From a virus, in IMG/VR virus record IMGVR_UViG_3300023094_000011, positions 1-58,202 of that record: DNA of 58,202 nt. The stretch is one strand, 5' to 3'. How positions within the stretch are numbered: the first letter of the stretch is position 1; each line of letters begins with the position of its first letter. Below the pieces are notes generated by a model. That model did not search any database, had not been told where the DNA came from, and saw only the letters and a program-made list of their open reading frames with translations. A program made the translations under genes and the position numbers. Below are positions 20,537 to 38,269 of the stretch, in pieces.

Positions 20537-21514
20537 CTAAATTCGCGTTTTTAGGGTTTCAATAAGGTCCTTGTGAGCAAACCAATTTTCGTTATAAGTG
20601 ACTTTCATTTTATGCAGTGCGTTGTCTAATTTGCGACAGTGCGGCTTCAGGGAGGGCATTGCCTTTTGCATTTCCTCTGCTGCGTCTTGCATGCCTTGCA
20701 ATTGTTCCAATGATTCGTTTACGGCATCTATCATTTTGCCGACAGCGAGAAGTGCCTGAAAGCCAGCGGTTTTATCGCTTTCTGTCGTAAAGAACATCGA
20801 TTCGACCAAAACGGGCACGCAATTGCTGATAGTGTCCACAGCCGCCTCGGCTTTAGGCAAAGTCAGTTCAAGATTATTTGCCAAGGTAGATGTTGCATTT
20901 CCCATAGCAGTAGCTATCCGAATTCCGCGAGAAGCTACTAACCCACGCGGGCCATTGGTCAAGGCATTCAGTTGATGCGTCTTTTCCTGCAACGTGAGAT
21001 TAAACTCAGTTATATGTCGCGCTTGCTCGCGGGTAGACAATTCAATTTCCCCCGTTGCGCTTGCAATAGCAAGCATTGCCCTGATTGCTTTTTGATCTCT
21101 TTCCGCCAATGTTTGAGCCGTCATAACTGGCTCAAGCATTTCTAGGTGCTGAGAAATCCACTCAACCAAATCGGCGCGCGTTTTTTCACTGGCTGCCAAG
21201 CCTAACATGAAGACAACAACTTCTTTTTCAGGAATTTCTATCAAGTACCCATTTTTAAGAGCAAAGACCGACATGGCTGCAAACGAAACTCGCTTGTTGC
21301 CATCATTGAAAGCGTGATTTTTGGCAAGAGAAAAGCCGAGTGCTGCAATCTTTTCGGGAAATGTAGGATAAGCATCGACCTCGCCAAAGCTAGAAGAAGG
21401 TTGAGCCAAGGCAGACAAAAGTAAACCCTCGTCTTTCACACCGGGGAGTCCGCCATGCATAGAGAGGGTTGCCTTATGGATTTGCAGAAGCTCTTCGTAG
21501 CTTATTTCATTCAT
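20537..21514 (-). CDS. doc: Doc/Fic-family toxin with long C-terminal extension
   Basis: 325 aa, compared with about 126 for P1 Doc. Residues 1-125 carry the Fic/Doc active-site motif HAFNDGNKR (67-75) and the family's opening LLQIHKATLSMHGG. Doc proteins phosphorylate or otherwise modify host translation factors. The remaining 200 residues are mostly helical and of unknown function. Its start overlaps the stop of a 52-aa antitoxin-like gene (ATGA), as in phd-doc addiction operons. Confidence 0.8.
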   Translation of the reverse strand: MNEISYEELLQIHKATLSMHGGLPGVKDEGLLLSALAQPSSSFGEVDAYPTFPEKIAALGFSLAKNHAFNDGNKRVSFAAMSVFALKNGYLIEIPEKEVVVFMLGLAASEKTRADLVEWISQHLEMLEPVMTAQTLAERDQKAIRAMLAIASATGEIELSTREQARHITEFNLTLQEKTHQLNALTNGPRGLVASRGIRIATAMGNATSTLANNLELTLPKAEAAVDTISNCVPVLVESMFFTTESDKTAGFQALLAVGKMIDAVNESLEQLQGMQDAAEEMQKAMPSLKPHCRKLDNALHKMKVTYNENWFAHKDLIETLKTRI

Positions 21515-31746: not shown

Positions 31747-32151
31747 ATGAGCAACTTTCTTTCCCCTGCGGCATCCCCCGCCGATGCTGATGCTGCATTC
31801 TTCGCGCTCGTCGAAGCGCCTTCGACTGAGGGACTCGTAACCATACAGGGCGATCTAGGTTTCTTCGCCACGCCCAGCGTCGGCAAGAACGTCTATTTCT
31901 TGCTGCAAAAGCCCATCGACGGCTCCCCAATTTTTATTGGCAACGAGTTGCAGGACCCCGATGGAAGGCTGGCGGTTGTAACTGGGAGCGATGGCACCTT
32001 CACTGTCTCGCTCCCGGTGCCGCCCTCTAACACCTACTGGCTGTGCCGCCCTTCTGGAATAACGGCCTTCGGTATCGATGTTAGTGAATCCGATATCGGG
32101 GAGACAGTGCAGTTGAGGGATATTTTAAGGGAGGTGGTGGCGACGCTTTAG
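31747..32151 (+). CDS. Last gene of the tail operon, hypothetical
   Basis: 134 aa, beta-rich with a Ser/Ala/Asp N terminus. AAGGAG ribosome site. Its stop overlaps by 4 bases the stop of a convergent minus-strand gene. Function unknown. Confidence 0.5.
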   Translation: MSNFLSPAASPADADAAFFALVEAPSTEGLVTIQGDLGFFATPSVGKNVYFLLQKPIDGSPIFIGNELQDPDGRLAVVTGSDGTFTVSLPVPPSNTYWLCRPSGITAFGIDVSESDIGETVQLRDILREVVATL

Positions 32152-32348
32152 GGCTCCTTTGGTTTTCGCCCACGCTTTTTCTGTCCCCGATCCCGTGCCA
32201 GCACGCACGCCATCTCAACGATAGCCGCGTGTCCCTCTGGCGTGTCCTCGGCTGAAATTTCGAGTTCGCCGTTTAGAGGCGGTGCATCGATATCACGGGT
32301 GTGGACGTAGAAACGTTCGTCAACATCTGTGATTACGTGGATTCTCAT
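32148..32348 (-). CDS. Small acidic protein in the XRE operon
   Basis: 66 aa. Acidic core (ELEISAEDTPEGHAAIVEMA) and very basic end (KKRGRKPKEP). Its start overlaps the stop of the HTH gene (ATGA), so both are one operon. A small, family-less protein paired with an HTH regulator fits an anti-CRISPR or toxin/antitoxin-type locus, but this is only positional. Confidence 0.5.
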   Translation of the reverse strand: MRIHVITDVDERFYVHTRDIDAPPLNGELEISAEDTPEGHAAIVEMACVLARDRGQKKRGRKPKEP

Positions 32349-32554
32349 TTGACGATGATCTCAATTTGTCCGGCCATCCGCCGTAATTTCAGTTCGATCA
32401 TTTCGATTGCGAGGTCGAGGAAAGGCGGAATTTTAGCGATACCCTGCTCCCAATTGCGCAGCGTCCCGACATTGGGCAGTTTTAGGGCGGCGGCCATCTG
32501 AACCTGTGTGTAGCCAATATCATCGCGCCGTTGTTTCAGTTGTGCGGGTGTCAT
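32345..32554 (-). CDS. XRE-family HTH regulator
   Basis: 69 aa. Cro/CI-type HTH at residues 13-42 (IGYTQVQMAAALKLPNVGTLRNWE, quoted here in part: IGYTQVQMAAALKLPN). It likely represses its own operon. The upstream region holds the CRISPR-repeat-like hairpins, the first only 20 bases before the start. It could play the role of an Aca-type regulator. Confidence 0.7.
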   Translation of the reverse strand: MTPAQLKQRRDDIGYTQVQMAAALKLPNVGTLRNWEQGIAKIPPFLDLAIEMIELKLRRMAGQIEIIVK

Positions 32555-32570
32555 AAAATGAGACTCGTAT

Positions 32571-32810
32571 TATCTCCGCGTGTGCGGAGTGTCGTATGGT
32601 TCCACGCTTCGGCGGGGACGAAACAGCCCCAAGGGATTGCGCCCCTGGGGCTGTTTTTCTATCCTAATGAAAGTTCTTCGCAGGTGCGAAGGCGAATTGT
32701 GTCTACATCAGACATAGTGCATGTTTCCTGCGTGCGCAGGGATGAACCGGATTTTCTCTGGTTTAAACGCCATTCGCAGTAAAGTTCCCTACATATGTGG
32801 GGATGAACCC
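32571..32810. repeat. Five degenerate type I-E-like CRISPR repeat hairpins
   Basis: Read on the plus strand, units begin at 32571, 32599, 32673, 32723 and 32784. Each has 3 bases (GTT, or TAT in the first), a 6-base arm, a 4-base loop, the complementary arm and a tail that in the best copies is GATGAACC. Arms differ (CTCCGC, CCACGC, CTTCGC, TCCTGC, CCCTAC), yet pairing is kept by compensatory changes except one mismatch in unit 2. Units 4 and 5 are 61 bases apart, the normal I-E repeat-spacer period; the others are 28, 74 and 50. No cas gene is nearby. Confidence 0.6.
32624..32657 (+). terminator. Plus-strand terminator inside the repeat cluster
   Basis: CAGCCCCA (32624-32631) pairs with TGGGGCTG, with a GGG/CCC extension around ATTGCG, followed by five T. 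It would end a short plus-strand RNA containing repeat-like hairpins 1 and 2. Confidence 0.75.
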
Positions 32811-32819
32811 TCCGCTGCT

Positions 32820-33395
32820 TCAATTTAGAGTGCGTACGTTTTCGCTTCTCCAATAACGAATCCAGCGGTTACCGATCCACTTCCAGCCATCATCTGAGAT
32901 TTGCGTTGCAGAAAGACGCCGAAACCACTGGTTTGTCATGTCGTCAAACTGCCAGCCCTCGCCATCAGGGGACTCAATGCCGCCCGGGTCTTTTATTGCG
33001 TCAAATTGCTCCCACCAGTCACCAGAGCCTGCGCTCTTGAACGGTCCCACCTCGCGCGCCTGCCAGTAGTAGGACTCAATCCCTTCAATTTCACTCATTG
33101 CATCGTTTAACTTGTCGATTTCGAAATCATCGCAAATAAACATGAAATCGTCCCCGCCGCCAGTCACAATGGCAGTGCGGATAGTAGGTGCGGGCGACAC
33201 AAAACGGCAAACCCAAATTATCGCTTCATACGTCAGATTGCCTTCAGGGATTTCAGCTAAATAATCATCAGCGTCGAACCCCCATCCCTGGGAGCGGCGG
33301 TAATTGGCTACAATAGCACGTGCCACGCTAGGCAGTTCAGTTACGGGTGAATCGCCTTTGAACAGGATGCTGCACTCGAAATTTGAAACATTCAT
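32820..33395 (-). CDS. Orphan acidic protein with own strong promoter
   Basis: 191 aa from ATG 33395, with GGAGATAATACA directly upstream; an in-frame start at 33440 would lie inside the promoter. Acidic, Trp-rich C terminus (GWKWIGNRWIRYWRSE). No membrane segment or known motif. It is transcribed alone from a near-consensus promoter with an inverted-repeat operator, so it is probably expressed early or in the prophage. Candidate host-interaction protein; function unknown. Confidence 0.55.
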   Translation of the reverse strand: MNVSNFECSILFKGDSPVTELPSVARAIVANYRRSQGWGFDADDYLAEIPEGNLTYEAIIWVCRFVSPAPTIRTAIVTGGGDDFMFICDDFEIDKLNDAMSEIEGIESYYWQAREVGPFKSAGSGDWWEQFDAIKDPGGIESPDGEGWQFDDMTNQWFRRLSATQISDDGWKWIGNRWIRYWRSENVRTLN

Positions 33396-33445
33396 TGTAT
33401 TATCTCCACTAACATTTTGTTCGCCATTGCGCGGCGACATAGATA

Positions 33446-33878: not shown

Positions 33879-34850
33879 TTAGTGCATCCTCTCGGCTAAA
33901 GTCTCCCCTGCCCGCGCCCACTCGACCGGCGCCTGTTTCGAGAGGTAATCTTTTTTCTGCGACACGAATTCAAAGCCCGCAATGCATATTTCAAGCTTCT
34001 CGCGGCGTAGAGGTTCCATAAGGGCGAGACACGCCGCGACTTGGGCAGTAGCGCGGGCGCGCAGCTCATCAATGGACAGCCTAGGGGCATCCTCATGGTA
34101 ATCGGCGCGCGATCCCGCATTTTGCACGTCAGGCGCTTCGACCGGCGCCGGGGCCATCGGTAACAAGCTGGGGTCTTTGAGCCGAGTAATAAGAAGCCCT
34201 ACCCCGCGAAGATTAAGCTTGTTCACAGTCTCCCACCACGCAATCACGCGCGGCACGTCCGGCCCAGCGTACTTAAGAGCATCACGCGCCGTGAGCCTCG
34301 CACCTATCAACATCTGGCGCCACTGTTCCATTTCCTCTGCGCTGCGTCCATCAATATCGGTGGCATCCAAAACGGGCGAAGAATTCGCATCTTCAACAAC
34401 GCCGTTGTCTGTTTCGTTTTGCATTGAGTCCACCTCCACTGTTTTGTGGCTCTCTTTGAGCGACGGTCCCGGCTCAGCTTTGACCGGGGATGGGGGGTCA
34501 ATTTGTTTAAAGAAATAGCCGTTTGAGGTCTGGCGCATCTTGCCGCGTTTCGTAGGTTCAAAGCGGGGATTCCATCCAACCAGTTCGGCGTCAGCGAGAG
34601 ATTTGAGGGCACGCTTCACCGTCGCCACGCTCAAGCCGGTATCGGCGGCGAGAATCTCATGCGACGGCCACGCAGTAGGGTTACGGCCCATACGGGCGAC
34701 CAGGGCGGTATAAACCTTGAAGGGGGACGGTTTGAGTTTGGCGCCGTGAGTGCGCAGCCACTGCACATTGAGGCGAATGTGCGCTTTGGTGGGGGGGGAA
34801 GGTTGAGCGGGTGTTGACGCCACAGATGGCGCTACGGTAAGATTGGACAT
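33879..34850 (-). CDS. Rep-like winged-helix replication initiation protein
   Basis: 323 aa. Residues 38-100 are a helix-turn-helix of the HTH_36 kind (PSHEILAADTGLSVATVKRA) found in plasmid Rep and phage O-like initiators. The rest is Pro/Glu-rich with a C-terminal helical domain. Located beside parAB and an origin-like intergenic region, so a role in initiating plasmid-style replication is inferred. A plain regulator is the alternative. Confidence 0.6.
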   Translation of the reverse strand: MSNLTVAPSVASTPAQPSPPTKAHIRLNVQWLRTHGAKLKPSPFKVYTALVARMGRNPTAWPSHEILAADTGLSVATVKRALKSLADAELVGWNPRFEPTKRGKMRQTSNGYFFKQIDPPSPVKAEPGPSLKESHKTVEVDSMQNETDNGVVEDANSSPVLDATDIDGRSAEEMEQWRQMLIGARLTARDALKYAGPDVPRVIAWWETVNKLNLRGVGLLITRLKDPSLLPMAPAPVEAPDVQNAGSRADYHEDAPRLSIDELRARATAQVAACLALMEPLRREKLEICIAGFEFVSQKKDYLSKQAPVEWARAGETLAERMH

Positions 34851-34857
34851 AGTGGTT

Positions 34858-34873
34858 TTCTACGCGGGTAACC
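34858..34873. promoter_or_regulatory. Inverted repeat before the Rep-like start codon
   Basis: ACGCGG-GTAA-CCGCGT, a perfect 6+4+6 palindrome 8 bases upstream of the rep start on its strand. It could be an operator or a hairpin that masks the leader. Confidence 0.45.
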
Positions 34874-34936
34874 GCGTCGTTAACAGAAGGGGTCTAACTT
34901 TTGCGGGAAAGTCCCTTCAAACTGAAAGTTGTGTAA

Positions 34937-34975
34937 AAGCCTGTTTCCCCTGCAAGGGAAACGGGCTTTTTGCAT
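34937..34975. terminator. Bidirectional terminator between rep and the excisionase-like gene
   Basis: AAGCCTGTTTCCC pairs with GGGAAACGGGCTT across CTGCAA with one mismatch; T runs follow on both strands (CTTTTTGC on plus, GGCTTTTAC on minus). It closes the minus-strand HTH gene at 34988. Confidence 0.75.
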
Positions 34976-34987
34976 TTACGGCTATTT

Positions 34988-35137
34988 CTATTGCGGCAAT
35001 TCGCTGCGAGAGATTAACCATGCGCGCCCGATTTTAGAGCCTTTTAAACGGCCCTCTCTCAACCACTTGCGAACCGTATACGGCGTGGTTTTCAAGAATT
35101 TTGCGGCTTCATCAACGGTTAAGAGTTCAGTGGTCAT
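34988..35137 (-). CDS. Excisionase-family HTH protein
   Basis: 49 aa: starts MTTELLTVDEAAKFL, then TPYTVRKWLREGRLKGSKIG and RAWLISRSEL, the full helix_turn_helix_17/Xis-like domain. GGAGTG precedes the ATG and a promoter with operator lies upstream. With no integrase in the genome it is more likely a transcription regulator or partition accessory than a true excisionase. Confidence 0.8.
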   Translation of the reverse strand: MTTELLTVDEAAKFLKTTPYTVRKWLREGRLKGSKIGRAWLISRSELPQ

Positions 35138-35160
35138 TGTTACTAATCACTCCACAACGG

Positions 35161-35195
35161 ATGATAACATTAGACAACCCTAATTGGCAAATTAG
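35161..35195 (-). promoter_or_regulatory. Promoter and operator of the excisionase-like gene
   Basis: Minus strand TTGCCA (35190-35185), 18-base spacer, TATCAT (35166-35161). The -35 overlaps a perfect palindrome CTAATT-GGCA-AATTAG (35180-35195), a likely operator. Confidence 0.55.
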
Positions 35196-35473
35196 TTTTC
35201 CATGCTTGTGAATTGTCAAGTCCCACATACGCCATTCAGCGCCACTCTATCAGCACCCTACCCCTCGCTGAAAACAGGGCGAAACCCTTGATTACTTCGC
35301 TTTCATCGCGTCGAGTGAAGAAGGGTAAGCTTTTAACGCAATTTTAATACTTCTTGAAGACATTTGAGCGACAAAGCTATGCAAATCGGTGGATTAGAAA
35401 TTTCTTAGAAGTAAATTAGTGTTTTTTATTACTGTATAATCCATCACTCATTACGATTACAAAAGGAATTTCG
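35196..35473. other. AT-rich intergenic region with a putative plus promoter
   Basis: No supported gene. ACCCTT (near 35283) and AAGGGT (near 35332) bracket an imperfect long hairpin. A TATAAT at 35435-35440 lies 33 bases before ATG 35474 with no clear -35. Could include an origin or partition site. Confidence 0.4.
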
Positions 35474-35854
35474 ATGCGCGAGGTTGAATGCGTAGTAGCG
35501 TCATATGCACAGATGCGGGATTCCTTGGAATCTGCAATTGATTCTGCAATGGTCGCAGAGTTTTACGAGTGGGTTTCGTCGTCACATGAACAGGCTGAAC
35601 ATCAGCTAACCCTGTTGCGTGCCCAGCGGAATCTCCTTTTTCAGCAGCTTTCGGTACGTAACGAATGCCCCTCCAGTGAGGCGTGGTTGAACGTGAATGC
35701 CCTGATCGGGTGGGCAGAAGAAAGGCACGCGATGTTCGATGGTTACGCCTATGAAATCACGAGCCTCGATAAAGAAACGCTCGATTTAGATCATCCTGGC
35801 GCGGCTTCATTGTGGTTGCGATTTTTGGCTAGTAAGGTTATTTTGCGGGACTAG
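35474..35854 (+). CDS. Hypothetical helical protein
   Basis: 126 aa, mostly helical (SSHEQAEHQLTLLRAQRNLL). Ribosome site AAGGAA and a TATAAT box upstream. The only plus-strand gene in the maintenance region, convergent with parB, whose 3' end it overlaps by 17 bases. Function unknown. Confidence 0.6.
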   Translation: MREVECVVASYAQMRDSLESAIDSAMVAEFYEWVSSSHEQAEHQLTLLRAQRNLLFQQLSVRNECPSSEAWLNVNALIGWAEERHAMFDGYAYEITSLDKETLDLDHPGAASLWLRFLASKVILRD

Positions 35855-36980
35855 CCGACTCGGTAGTGAAGCGGGCTTTGATCTCCGCAAGTCGTGCTTC
35901 GATGCGTCCGATCCGCGTCACGAAAGCCTCCTTAACGAGTGGGTTGGTGTGGCGATGTTCGAGGATATACGGGACTTGGTTCTCAGTTATCCCTATAAGG
36001 CGCTCGATGGTGTCCAGGCTATGAGTCATGGACTGAGCATCATAAGTGGGCTCTTCTGGAAAATCCCATTGCAGCTTTTCGAGTTCCTCCTTATCGCGTC
36101 GGTCTGCTTCTAGTTCCCGCTCCGTCGATTCTAGTAAATCGTCGATGCTGGGCGGCGTGGATGGTTCAAACGAGCGGCGTGGTTCTTCAGGCGGCGGCGT
36201 GGGTTCCGGTTCTGGTTGCGCTGCTGGGCGCGGCAAAAGCATTTTGATAGCTCCGACACTGGCGCCGCTTTTGACAGCCTGAATCATCTCTTTGCGGACC
36301 GCTTTACTAGCTACGCCCTGAATAATTTCAACGTGAGTCAAAACGTCGTTGAACAGTTGGAACAATTCCACTAATTCAGGATCGTCTTTGATTTTCTTCC
36401 ACACTCGGTAACGGTCCCCTACCCAGGCGGCATTACCCTTTGCGAATTTTTTGAACTGGTTGTCTGCCAGGAATTTTTGAGACCGGCCAAATTCATCAAT
36501 ATAACGAGCGATAGAGCGACAAATCGCGGACAACGACATGAACTCATGTTCGATGTTCTGGGCGTTCTGAATGTCTAAAACCTTCTCTCGGTTTGTGACG
36601 TTTTTTACTTCAACATCAGCACGTTCCCATCCCAAATCCTTAATAGCCCAGTAGCGAATCTCCCCATCGATAAGCTGATGGTCCACACCGTTTCGCACTT
36701 CATCAGGGGTGCGCGCTGCCATTTCGTCAGGCCACAGCGGGCGCACCTTGAAGGGGTCAAGCTGCCCATCTTTAAGGATGCTTTCCTTCCGACTTTCAAT
36801 AGCATCTGGCGGGAAATAATCACGCGGCTGCTCGGCGTCGGGCCTGATGCGCGACATGAGCATGGATTGTGTCACACGCGGGGACGCGCCATTGATTGCC
36901 TGATCCGCCGCGTCCAACGCTGCCACGTTTCCAGGGCGATGCCCGCCACTATGACGCGGGCCGTAATTTGTCTGTGCCAT
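35838..36980 (-). CDS. parB: ParB-like partition protein
   Basis: 380 aa. The N-terminal ParB/Srx-like domain spans about residues 45-130 (QPRDYFPPDAIESRKESIL, then LIDGEIRYWAIKDLGW, matching the DGERRW motif). Residues 145-240 are the HTH DNA-binding region. A Pro/Glu linker and coiled-coil C terminus follow. It should bind a centromere-like parS site and work with ParA. Its start overlaps the parA stop (TAATG). Confidence 0.85.
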   Translation of the reverse strand: MAQTNYGPRHSGGHRPGNVAALDAADQAINGASPRVTQSMLMSRIRPDAEQPRDYFPPDAIESRKESILKDGQLDPFKVRPLWPDEMAARTPDEVRNGVDHQLIDGEIRYWAIKDLGWERADVEVKNVTNREKVLDIQNAQNIEHEFMSLSAICRSIARYIDEFGRSQKFLADNQFKKFAKGNAAWVGDRYRVWKKIKDDPELVELFQLFNDVLTHVEIIQGVASKAVRKEMIQAVKSGASVGAIKMLLPRPAAQPEPEPTPPPEEPRRSFEPSTPPSIDDLLESTERELEADRRDKEELEKLQWDFPEEPTYDAQSMTHSLDTIERLIGITENQVPYILEHRHTNPLVKEAFVTRIGRIEARLAEIKARFTTESASPAK

Positions 36981-37585
36981 TATTTGCCTACCATCCGTTC
37001 GACTTCCTTACCCAGCGCCCGATATGCGACCGCGCCGGCTGATTTGGGCGCATTCAATACCACAGGGCGCCGCGCCGCAAAAGCCCGCTCGAAATCCATC
37101 GTACGCAGAGGTACACACGCCTCAGTTACACCCCACATCGACAAAACACGCGCCGCTGCTATAACCCCCGCGCTGTATGCAGAGCGATCAACGCGGGTGA
37201 AAGTAACAGCGGCGATCAGCGATGGGTTTTGCTGTCGAGCCAAATCGATAGTCTCGAAAGTGCGGGCCAAAGATTCCAGCGACGGGCCCAATGGTGTGCA
37301 AGGAATCAGCACAAGGTCACTGTGTAAAAAAGCTTTGCCCGTTGCCGTCACGATCTGCGGCGCCGTATCGACAACAACAAAATATCCCTGTGGTACGACG
37401 TTCGGCATCGCCGTTAAAAATTCCACACCTTCAATAGAACCCGCGTATTTCATCGCGTCGTGTTGTTGTGAATCCAGGTCCACGACGAAACCCTTCCTAC
37501 CCGTTTCTGCAAGCGCGGCAGCAAGGTTAACGGTTGTTGCTGTTTTGGTCTGCTCACCTTTTTGAGCGGCAACTATAATTCTCAT
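36980..37585 (-). CDS. parA: ParA-like partition ATPase
   Basis: 201 aa. Deviant Walker A region is KGEQTKTAT (residues 9-17) where the family has KGGxGKTT; Lys9 and Lys14 are kept but two glycines are replaced. Walker A-prime VVDLDSQ and Walker B VVVDTAP are intact. It would drive segregation of the circular prophage. The P-loop change may alter ATP cycling. Confidence 0.85.
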   Translation of the reverse strand: MRIIVAAQKGEQTKTATTVNLAAALAETGRKGFVVDLDSQQHDAMKYAGSIEGVEFLTAMPNVVPQGYFVVVDTAPQIVTATGKAFLHSDLVLIPCTPLGPSLESLARTFETIDLARQQNPSLIAAVTFTRVDRSAYSAGVIAAARVLSMWGVTEACVPLRTMDFERAFAARRPVVLNAPKSAGAVAYRALGKEVERMVGK

Positions 37586-37591
37586 GGGTTA

Positions 37592-37649
37592 GGGGTTACC
37601 GCTTGTGCGGTTAAGGGAATGCCCGCGTTGTTTTTTAAAAATTAACGCG
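37592..37649. promoter_or_regulatory. Inverted repeats upstream of parA, candidate operator or parS
   Basis: CGCGTT (37624-37629) and AACGCG (37644-37649) form an inverted repeat around an AT-rich core. ACCGC-TTGT-GCGGT forms a hairpin nearer the start codon. Location before parA fits a partition operator or centromere. Confidence 0.45.
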
Positions 37650-37669
37650 TTTTTAACACTATTTGCACT

Positions 37670-38269
37670 TTAATGCGCGCGAATGACTCCGCGTTTAACG
37701 CCGCAGATGCGAAGATCATGACCTGGCTTCGACGTGTCAATCTCGATTACCTGGTGCTTTTCGTTCATTGGAATGAGCTTCACAATAGGTGAGTCGTGGC
37801 TATAAGTTACTTTCTTAAGTGTCGCCGTAGTGCCCATTGGTCCATCCACAAGGACAACTGCGATTTCGCCGCTGTCGCAGCGTGACTGTTGGCGCACTAG
37901 AACCAAATCGCCGTCGAGGATGCCGTCTCCAATCATGCTGTCGCCGGTTGCACGCAAGAGAAAATCCCCCTCTCTGATGGTGTACAAATCCCCCACATTA
38001 ATGTGGGCTTCAACTTTACCCTCGCCAACTTCTGAAAGGGGACCGCAAGGCACCTCGCCAAAAAGAGGCACAGACTTTGTCTCCCGGCGAATCGCCCGTG
38101 CAACCACATCGTTCTCGGAATTCCCCTCGCGGTCCGCGATAGTCGCCAAGAGTTCTGCAATGCTGGGGGTAACCAGAAAGTTTTTGCGCGAAGTCTTAGT
38201 TTCTTTACGCGCCTTCGAATTTGTGTTGTCTGCCATAAAAGTGGCACGGCTGACGGGTGTTGTGTTCAT
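37670..38269 (-). CDS. S24 (LexA/CI/UmuD-like) phage repressor
   Basis: 199 aa (188 from the Met at 38236). C-terminal autopeptidase: predicted cleavage Cys75-Gly76 (EVPCGP, a C-G bond as in UmuD), Ser111 in ATGDSM and Lys152 in TATLKKV. Residues 25-63 look like a short ribbon-helix-helix rather than a classical CI HTH. It probably maintains lysogeny and is inactivated by host RecA after DNA damage. Divergent from a small HTH gene with shared operators. Confidence 0.8.
   Translation of the reverse strand: MNTTPVSRATFMADNTNSKARKETKTSRKNFLVTPSIAELLATIADREGNSENDVVARAIRRETKSVPLFGEVPCGPLSEVGEGKVEAHINVGDLYTIREGDFLLRATGDSMIGDGILDGDLVLVRQQSRCDSGEIAVVLVDGPMGTTATLKKVTYSHDSPIVKLIPMNEKHQVIEIDTSKPGHDLRICGVKRGVIRAH

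Follow-up and report, generated by a model that had tools for sequence, protein, structure and literature searches.

The intergenic gap at positions 32555-32819 of a virus genome holds a row of short hairpins resembling type I-E CRISPR repeats, and raises the question of whether they encode an RNA that imitates the repeats of a host, or are a decayed or working CRISPR array, operator sites or a chance likeness. The window analysed is the whole 58,202-base virus record IMGVR_UViG_3300023094_000011. A first-pass annotation had described five degenerate units of one design in this region, and had read them as an RNA anti-CRISPR of the solitary-repeat type or as the relic of an array. The units were found at the positions given there, inside the 265-nt gap (Table 1). 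The interpretation that the gap encodes a + strand structured RNA mimicking type I-E CRISPR repeats, i.e. a multi-unit RNA anti-CRISPR, is held here with a little better than even confidence. For units 2, 4 and 5 it is based on the I-E handle, the pair-preserving 6-bp stem, the G-U nature of the stem exceptions, the absence of cas genes and the occurrence of analogous clusters in other phages.

Table 1. Features of the hairpin cluster, its flanking genes and comparable clusters in other phages (window coordinates unless a record is named; E value and rank in the window from a covariance model of other phages)
Feature	Position	Strand	E (rank)	Description
69-aa helix-turn-helix (HTH) protein	32345-32554	-		start codon toward the cluster; weak HTH matches only, below curated cut-offs
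Unit 1	32571-32597	+	4	perfect 16-bp palindrome CTCCGCGTGTGCGGAG at 32574-32589; TAT in place of GTT; tail TGTCGTAT, no handle; model matches the bare stem only
Unit 2	32599-32625	+	0.0067 (3)	GTT-CCACGC-TTCG-GCGGGG-ACGAAACA; one A-G stem mismatch; joined to terminator
Intrinsic terminator	32621-32659	+		15-bp stem with one mismatch, T run after; 5' arm begins 3 nt inside the unit 2 handle
Unit 3	32673-32699	+	0.61 (8)	GTT-CTTCGC-AGGT-GCGAAG-GCGAATTG; perfect stem, poor handle
Second hairpin, unit 3	32696-32718	+		9 bp, 5-nt loop; uses the end of the handle; P 0.0025 in shuffles
Unit 4	32723-32749	+	6.9e-5 (2)	GTT-TCCTGC-GTGC-GCAGGG-ATGAACCG; canonical I-E handle, compensated stem; starts 50 nt past unit 3
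Second hairpin, unit 4	32743-32765	+		UGAACCGGA-UUUUC-UCUGGUUUA; 9 bp, 5-nt loop; P 0.0075 in shuffles
Unit 4-unit 5 interval	32750-32781	+		32 nt in the 29-nt repeat frame, spacer-sized
Unit 5	32784-32810	+	7.5e-8 (1)	GTT-CCCTAC-ATAT-GTGGGG-ATGAACCC; starts exactly 61 nt past unit 4
206-aa protein	32820-33440	-		other border of the cluster; no family, no relatives found
L099				five units, spacing 48-49 nt
L190	7428-7660	reverse		four units at 49-50 nt, fifth 62 nt beyond
L350	14007-14210			four units, spacing 49 nt
L315	3045-3210	reverse		two good units 49 nt apart, weaker ones besides
L156				three units at 50 and 61 nt, the intervals of window units 3-4-5
L189		reverse		relative of L156; one additional 61-nt unit
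L191, L374, L157 and others				smaller clusters
L093, Salmonella phage vB_SEnST11_KE23	1499-1647 (PP856722.1, about 34376-34524)			three-unit I-E-like cluster
L411, Klebsiella phage KP13-16	1240-1385 (OP617741.1)			three-unit cluster, homologous to that of KE23

Resemblance of the units to type I-E repeats

Each site received a score for GTT, for a stem of six pairs closing a loop of four bases and for the I-E handle ATGAACCG. The best three-unit cluster of the window reached 53.6 as compared to a maximum of 45.3 over 300 Markov shuffles, and a four-unit cluster was obtained in 0 of the 300. Units 4 and 5 scored 19.3 and 18.3; sites scoring at least 18 were absent from 5.0 Mb (counted per strand) of DNA from other phages and prophages, and the window has two of them, 61 nt apart. 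The cluster is far above chance expectation. A covariance model was built from 30 units of other phages with no window sequence, and its three best matches in the window are units 5, 4 and 2. By these E values and ranks, only units 2, 4 and 5 are solid members. The claim of five units sharing one design is thus not confirmed: unit 3 is a borderline case, and unit 1, which lacks both GTT and handle, does not conform, its membership in the cluster being doubtful.

Several units are packed into about 210 nt, and identity of the others to unit 4 is 65-73%. Units 4 and 5 both terminate in GGGATGAACC, a 10-mer with no other exact copy in the window, and their starts (32723 and 32784) are separated by the type I-E period of exactly 61 nt; the shared ending and the spacing had both been recognised earlier. 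The remaining start-to-start intervals are 50, 74 and 28 nt, none of them 61. With units 4-5 as BLAST query, matches were obtained to true I-E arrays that have cas genes next to them, in Roseomonas, Ideonella and Acidiphilium. The earlier suggestion that the intervals be searched as spacers was followed for the stretch between units 4 and 5, which matches nothing in phage and plasmid records, the matches covering essentially the repeat parts only, and which has no 12-mer in common with the rest of the window. The reported absence of cas genes was borne out by Pfam, which found zero cas families in the 77 window ORFs; PADLOC gave no cas gene among the first 25 families listed for the same ORFs. 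The stems of units 3, 4 and 5 are fully paired, with T-A, A-T and G-U replacing the usual pairs, so that the statement that stems differ yet stay paired through compensatory changes is correct for these three, while unit 2 departs from it by its A-G mismatch.

Terminator and second hairpins

Two features had been overlooked in the first-pass annotation, namely the terminator on unit 2 and the second hairpins past units 3 and 4. The free energy of folding of unit 2 with the terminator (32597-32660) corresponds to z -5.1, and that of the complete gap to z = -5.65; no match was obtained in Rfam, and a tRNA/tmRNA search returned none. The P values of the second hairpins in Table 1 compare the pairing strength of the handle with that in shuffles of the downstream bases. 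The second hairpin of unit 4 is predicted to lock its 5' handle. Over all clusters the effect is marginal, since 22 of 400 shuffles are equally strong, and handle locking was dropped as a general rule of the clusters, but it is clear in the window.

Units 3-5 lie beyond the terminator of unit 2; they would therefore require their own promoter, and nothing terminates them. On the + strand near the cluster no convincing promoter and no sigma-70 consensus was recognised, which is a point against the RNA anti-CRISPR reading.

Phage and gene neighbourhood

The window encodes head, portal and terminase genes together with a plasmid-like gene block. Genes for a replication initiator, ParB, ParA and an S24/LexA-like repressor lie at 33879-38269 on the - strand, adjoining the cluster, and because of these the virus looks like a phage-plasmid. 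A Fic/Doc-family gene is located at 20537-21514 (- strand), within the structural gene block. Both genes flanking the gap are on the - strand, and the 69-aa HTH protein is a possible regulator.

DNA relatives of the window among phages and plasmids amount to nothing beyond fragments. When relatives of the HTH, 206-aa and replication proteins were sought in viral contigs, one weak HTH relative was found, with no cluster alongside. The cluster is also absent from five viral records with related terminases; a match in L004 was rejected as it falls within a reading frame. That the DNA, protein and terminase-relative searches located no phage relative bearing the cluster argues against the RNA anti-CRISPR reading, as does the finding that, of 24 genomes with a related terminase, only 3 carry Cas6e. 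The terminase relatives at 40-50% identity are mostly from Proteobacteria, and comparison of ParA or terminase would place the host probably in Proteobacteria at best. The closest terminase relative (75% identity) lies in an 846-aa open frame of another record (L003, 3-2543); since the match is confined to the last part of that frame, it may contain an insertion such as an intein, or be a fusion.

Comparable clusters in other phages

Among 2.9 million viral contigs, scanned for hairpins of the I-E-like type and for pairs of them spaced 48-51 nt apart, there were true arrays, chance matches and clusters resembling that of the window. About a dozen other phage contigs carry 2-5 units with varied yet paired stems at a spacing of 48-61 nt. 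Like unit 2 of the window, the terminal units of L099, L350, L315 and L191 run into a terminator that starts 3-6 nt inside the handle, making five clusters with the same fusion. A terminator occurs at such a place in 1.7% of random positions and in 3 of 164 true array repeats. The window cluster is less tidy than those of L099 or L350, as its terminator splits unit 2 off from the other hairpins, units 3-5. The stem CCTGC...GCAGG of unit 4 is found in an I-E-like context in a single record of the viral collection, the L099 cluster. Pfam revealed no type I cas families in 71 ORFs of the comparable loci.

The repeats of L350, L315 and L190 have the form GTTCCCC/GCTCCCC...GGGGATGACCC with a period of 49-50 nt. 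Successive intervals in L350 are alike (GATTACAGGGG, GATTCGATGGG, GATTGCAGGGG), which suggests duplication of whole units. The homologous clusters of L156 and L189 differ by one inserted 61-nt unit, and constitute a natural experiment on the gain or loss of units.

The clusters of KE23 and KP13-16 are, like that of the window, short groups of I-E-like hairpins in phages, and no type I cas gene is present in the stretches read; unlike in the window, their first two repeats are near-identical and the handle is ATAAACC. In KE23 the gene directly downstream of the cluster is of TnpB/OrfB type and carries the annotation transposase; its place is taken by a hypothetical gene in KP13-16. On plasmid pAt1 of Allochromatium tepidum (L097, 4939-5030) two canonical I-E repeats stand 61 nt apart with a tyrosine integrase gene alongside and no cas gene in the annotated stretch; this is possibly an array fragment, or an element integrated beside a CRISPR array. 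The pattern of a repeat followed by GCCCC was discarded, its matches in viral contigs being mostly chance among those listed. In 754 Gamma- and Alphaproteobacterial genomes the 48-51-nt pair pattern gave 4 matches, about as many as the reversed-pattern control; these were rejected as clusters, since two of them belong to true arrays and one to a short array in the vicinity of cas.

Selection on structure

In an alignment of 34 units, 97.1% of the stem cells are paired and both-side changes occur in 5 of 6 pairs, a result reached by 0 of 500 shuffles, with the caveat that the units had been picked by a score rewarding pairing. Slid versions of the same alignment show 47-58% pairing, and without the window units 97.2% of the cells are still paired. 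Exceptions to Watson-Crick pairs comprise 10 G-U and 1 A-C, as expected if the selected form is the + strand RNA. Comparison of KE23 with KP13-16 is a cleaner test of structure than the 34-unit covariation: they agree at 26/29 positions in the first hairpin and at 26/28 in the second, which has a one-base deletion common to both phages, while the interval between the two is not alignable above chance. Similarly, the stems of the three matching units of L156 and L189 vary solely by pair-keeping changes.

Alternative explanations

The units might be the relic of a host type I-E mini-array which was taken up by the phage and is now decaying without function, as had been offered earlier as the second option. 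That units 4 and 5 are spaced by exactly 61 nt, that the units differ and some are poor, and that no promoter was recognised would agree with this, and degraded short arrays do exist, e.g. in a viral contig (L187) and in a bacterial genome 4.3 kb from a Cas6e gene (L408). Decay should, however, break the stems, whereas the changes observed preserve the pairs; this makes a relic the less likely option of the two. The other intervals of 50, 74 and 28 nt instead of 61, and a terminator placed exactly on the handle in a design common to four unrelated clusters, also argue against a relic, which is considered unlikely. Alternatively, the array might be a working one, in which the 32-nt interval guides host Cascade, e.g. 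versus competing phages. In their 29+32 geometry, unit 4, the interval and unit 5 correspond to a true I-E crRNA, the spacer turnover between KE23 and KP13-16 would fit, and phage mini-arrays with an anti-competitor role are known (reviewed in PMC11656645). Published mini-array repeats are identical to those of the host (PMC11656645), whereas those of units 4 and 5 differ between themselves; furthermore, neither phage nor plasmid records gave a match to the interval, and a hairpin is predicted to lock the handle. A working mini-array is regarded as quite improbable.

Another explanation places the function in the DNA, with the palindromes as operators bound by the adjacent HTH protein, which would control its own promoter. 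HTH proteins of this kind often regulate themselves. The window has no exact CTYCGC-N4-GCGRAG site other than units 1 and 3, and the HTH start codon follows unit 1 at a distance of 20 bp, so that both units may well be operators. Units 2, 4 and 5 have different half-sites as well as I-E handles, which a DNA operator does not need, and the stem exceptions are G-U rather than A-C; for the cluster as a whole, operators are an improbable explanation. Lastly, the resemblance to CRISPR repeats could be accidental, the region being an unrelated structured RNA or a terminator region, and a + strand gene ends at 32151, upstream of unit 2 with its terminator, which could be no more than the terminator region of an operon. 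Given the cluster statistics, the independent covariance-model matches and the lack of an Rfam match, chance resemblance is very unlikely.

Proposed mode of action

If the multi-unit RNA anti-CRISPR reading holds, the cluster RNA would be made upon infection, and host Cas6e would bind the stem-loops, stay on the product and thereby be titrated. Cas6e is a single-turnover enzyme and remains bound to its product. The downstream fragments would sequester Cas7e/Cas5e into complexes that are short or misassembled; alternatively, the handle-locking hairpins would keep these fragments out of assembly. With fewer functional Cascades, the phage would escape. Diversification of the stems might avoid the recombinational loss of copies, and would offer no true repeat to the adaptation proteins of the host.

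The presence of several hairpins, with their handles locked, would speak for titration of Cas6e. Truncated decoys would be favoured by the 49-50-nt period of the sister clusters, which leaves 20-21 nt, the length for four Cas7; by the type I-F1 rule L = 6N - 4, a spacer of 20-21 nt is predicted for four Cas7 and not six (PMC7296934). The window has one such short interval only (50-nt period), and the nearness of its intervals of 21, 32 and 45 nt to 6N - 4 was not counted, as each has a large chance probability. In RacrIF1 the stem-loop carries the inhibition, holds Cas6f and builds an aberrant Cas7 filament, and changes of the handle are tolerated (PMC10651486). Were the clusters inhibitory, the question would be whether inhibition scales with hairpin number, as for a Cas6e sponge, or with truncated intervals, as for an aberrant Cascade. 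It is tentatively proposed, as a possibility well short of probable, that they form a widespread and so far unsurveyed class of phage RNA, i.e. terminator-capped trains of diversified I-E repeat mimics acting as Cas6e sponge and truncated decoy crRNAs, of which the window carries one member.

Comparison with known systems

Type I-E arrays such as those of Roseomonas mucosa p1-AD3 and Ideonella dechloratans share with the window the arrangement GTTCC-stem-N4-stem-GATGAACCG, and one unit pair has their 61-nt period; in true arrays, however, the repeats are near-identical, the spacing is regular and cas genes are adjacent. Virus-borne mini-arrays (PMC11656645) likewise have at least two repeats and spacer-sized intervals in a virus without cas genes, but their repeats match those of the host and their spacers match related viruses. 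The window units, at 65-73% identity to unit 4, are not near-identical, and its intervals are mostly not 32 nt, a spacer of subtype length being present between units 4 and 5 only.

The closest likeness is to the Racrs, or solitary repeat units (RacrIE1, RacrIE2, RacrIF1; Camara-Wilpert et al. 2023, PMC10651486), two type I-E members of which were shown to work. These are also phage-borne mimics of a repeat stem-loop and handle, intergenic and without cas genes, and units 2, 4 and 5 have a stem-loop and handle like a repeat of known subtype, which unit 1 does not. Mimicry of I-E repeats is accordingly the best-supported part of the earlier proposal for these three units, whereas the label of a solitary-repeat type does not suit a multi-unit cluster; the locus is Racr-like in its best reading, yet not solitary in the sense of SRUFinder. 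That program demands at least 90% identity to a known repeat, and drops repeats having another within 100 bp or more than 70% flank similarity (PMC10651486). Due to the neighbour rule, such clusters fall outside the Racr survey and multi-unit forms would be missed systematically; no report of multi-unit Racrs was found in the literature searched, preprints and most subscription journals being outside its scope. The window cluster differs from a Racr in having several non-identical units in one gap, diversified stems, a terminator fused to a unit and second hairpins on handles. If the clusters inhibit CRISPR, this would be a second architecture, with several decoys per locus, different stems and a built-in terminator, and would account for the divergence of phage repeat mimics from the repeat of the host.
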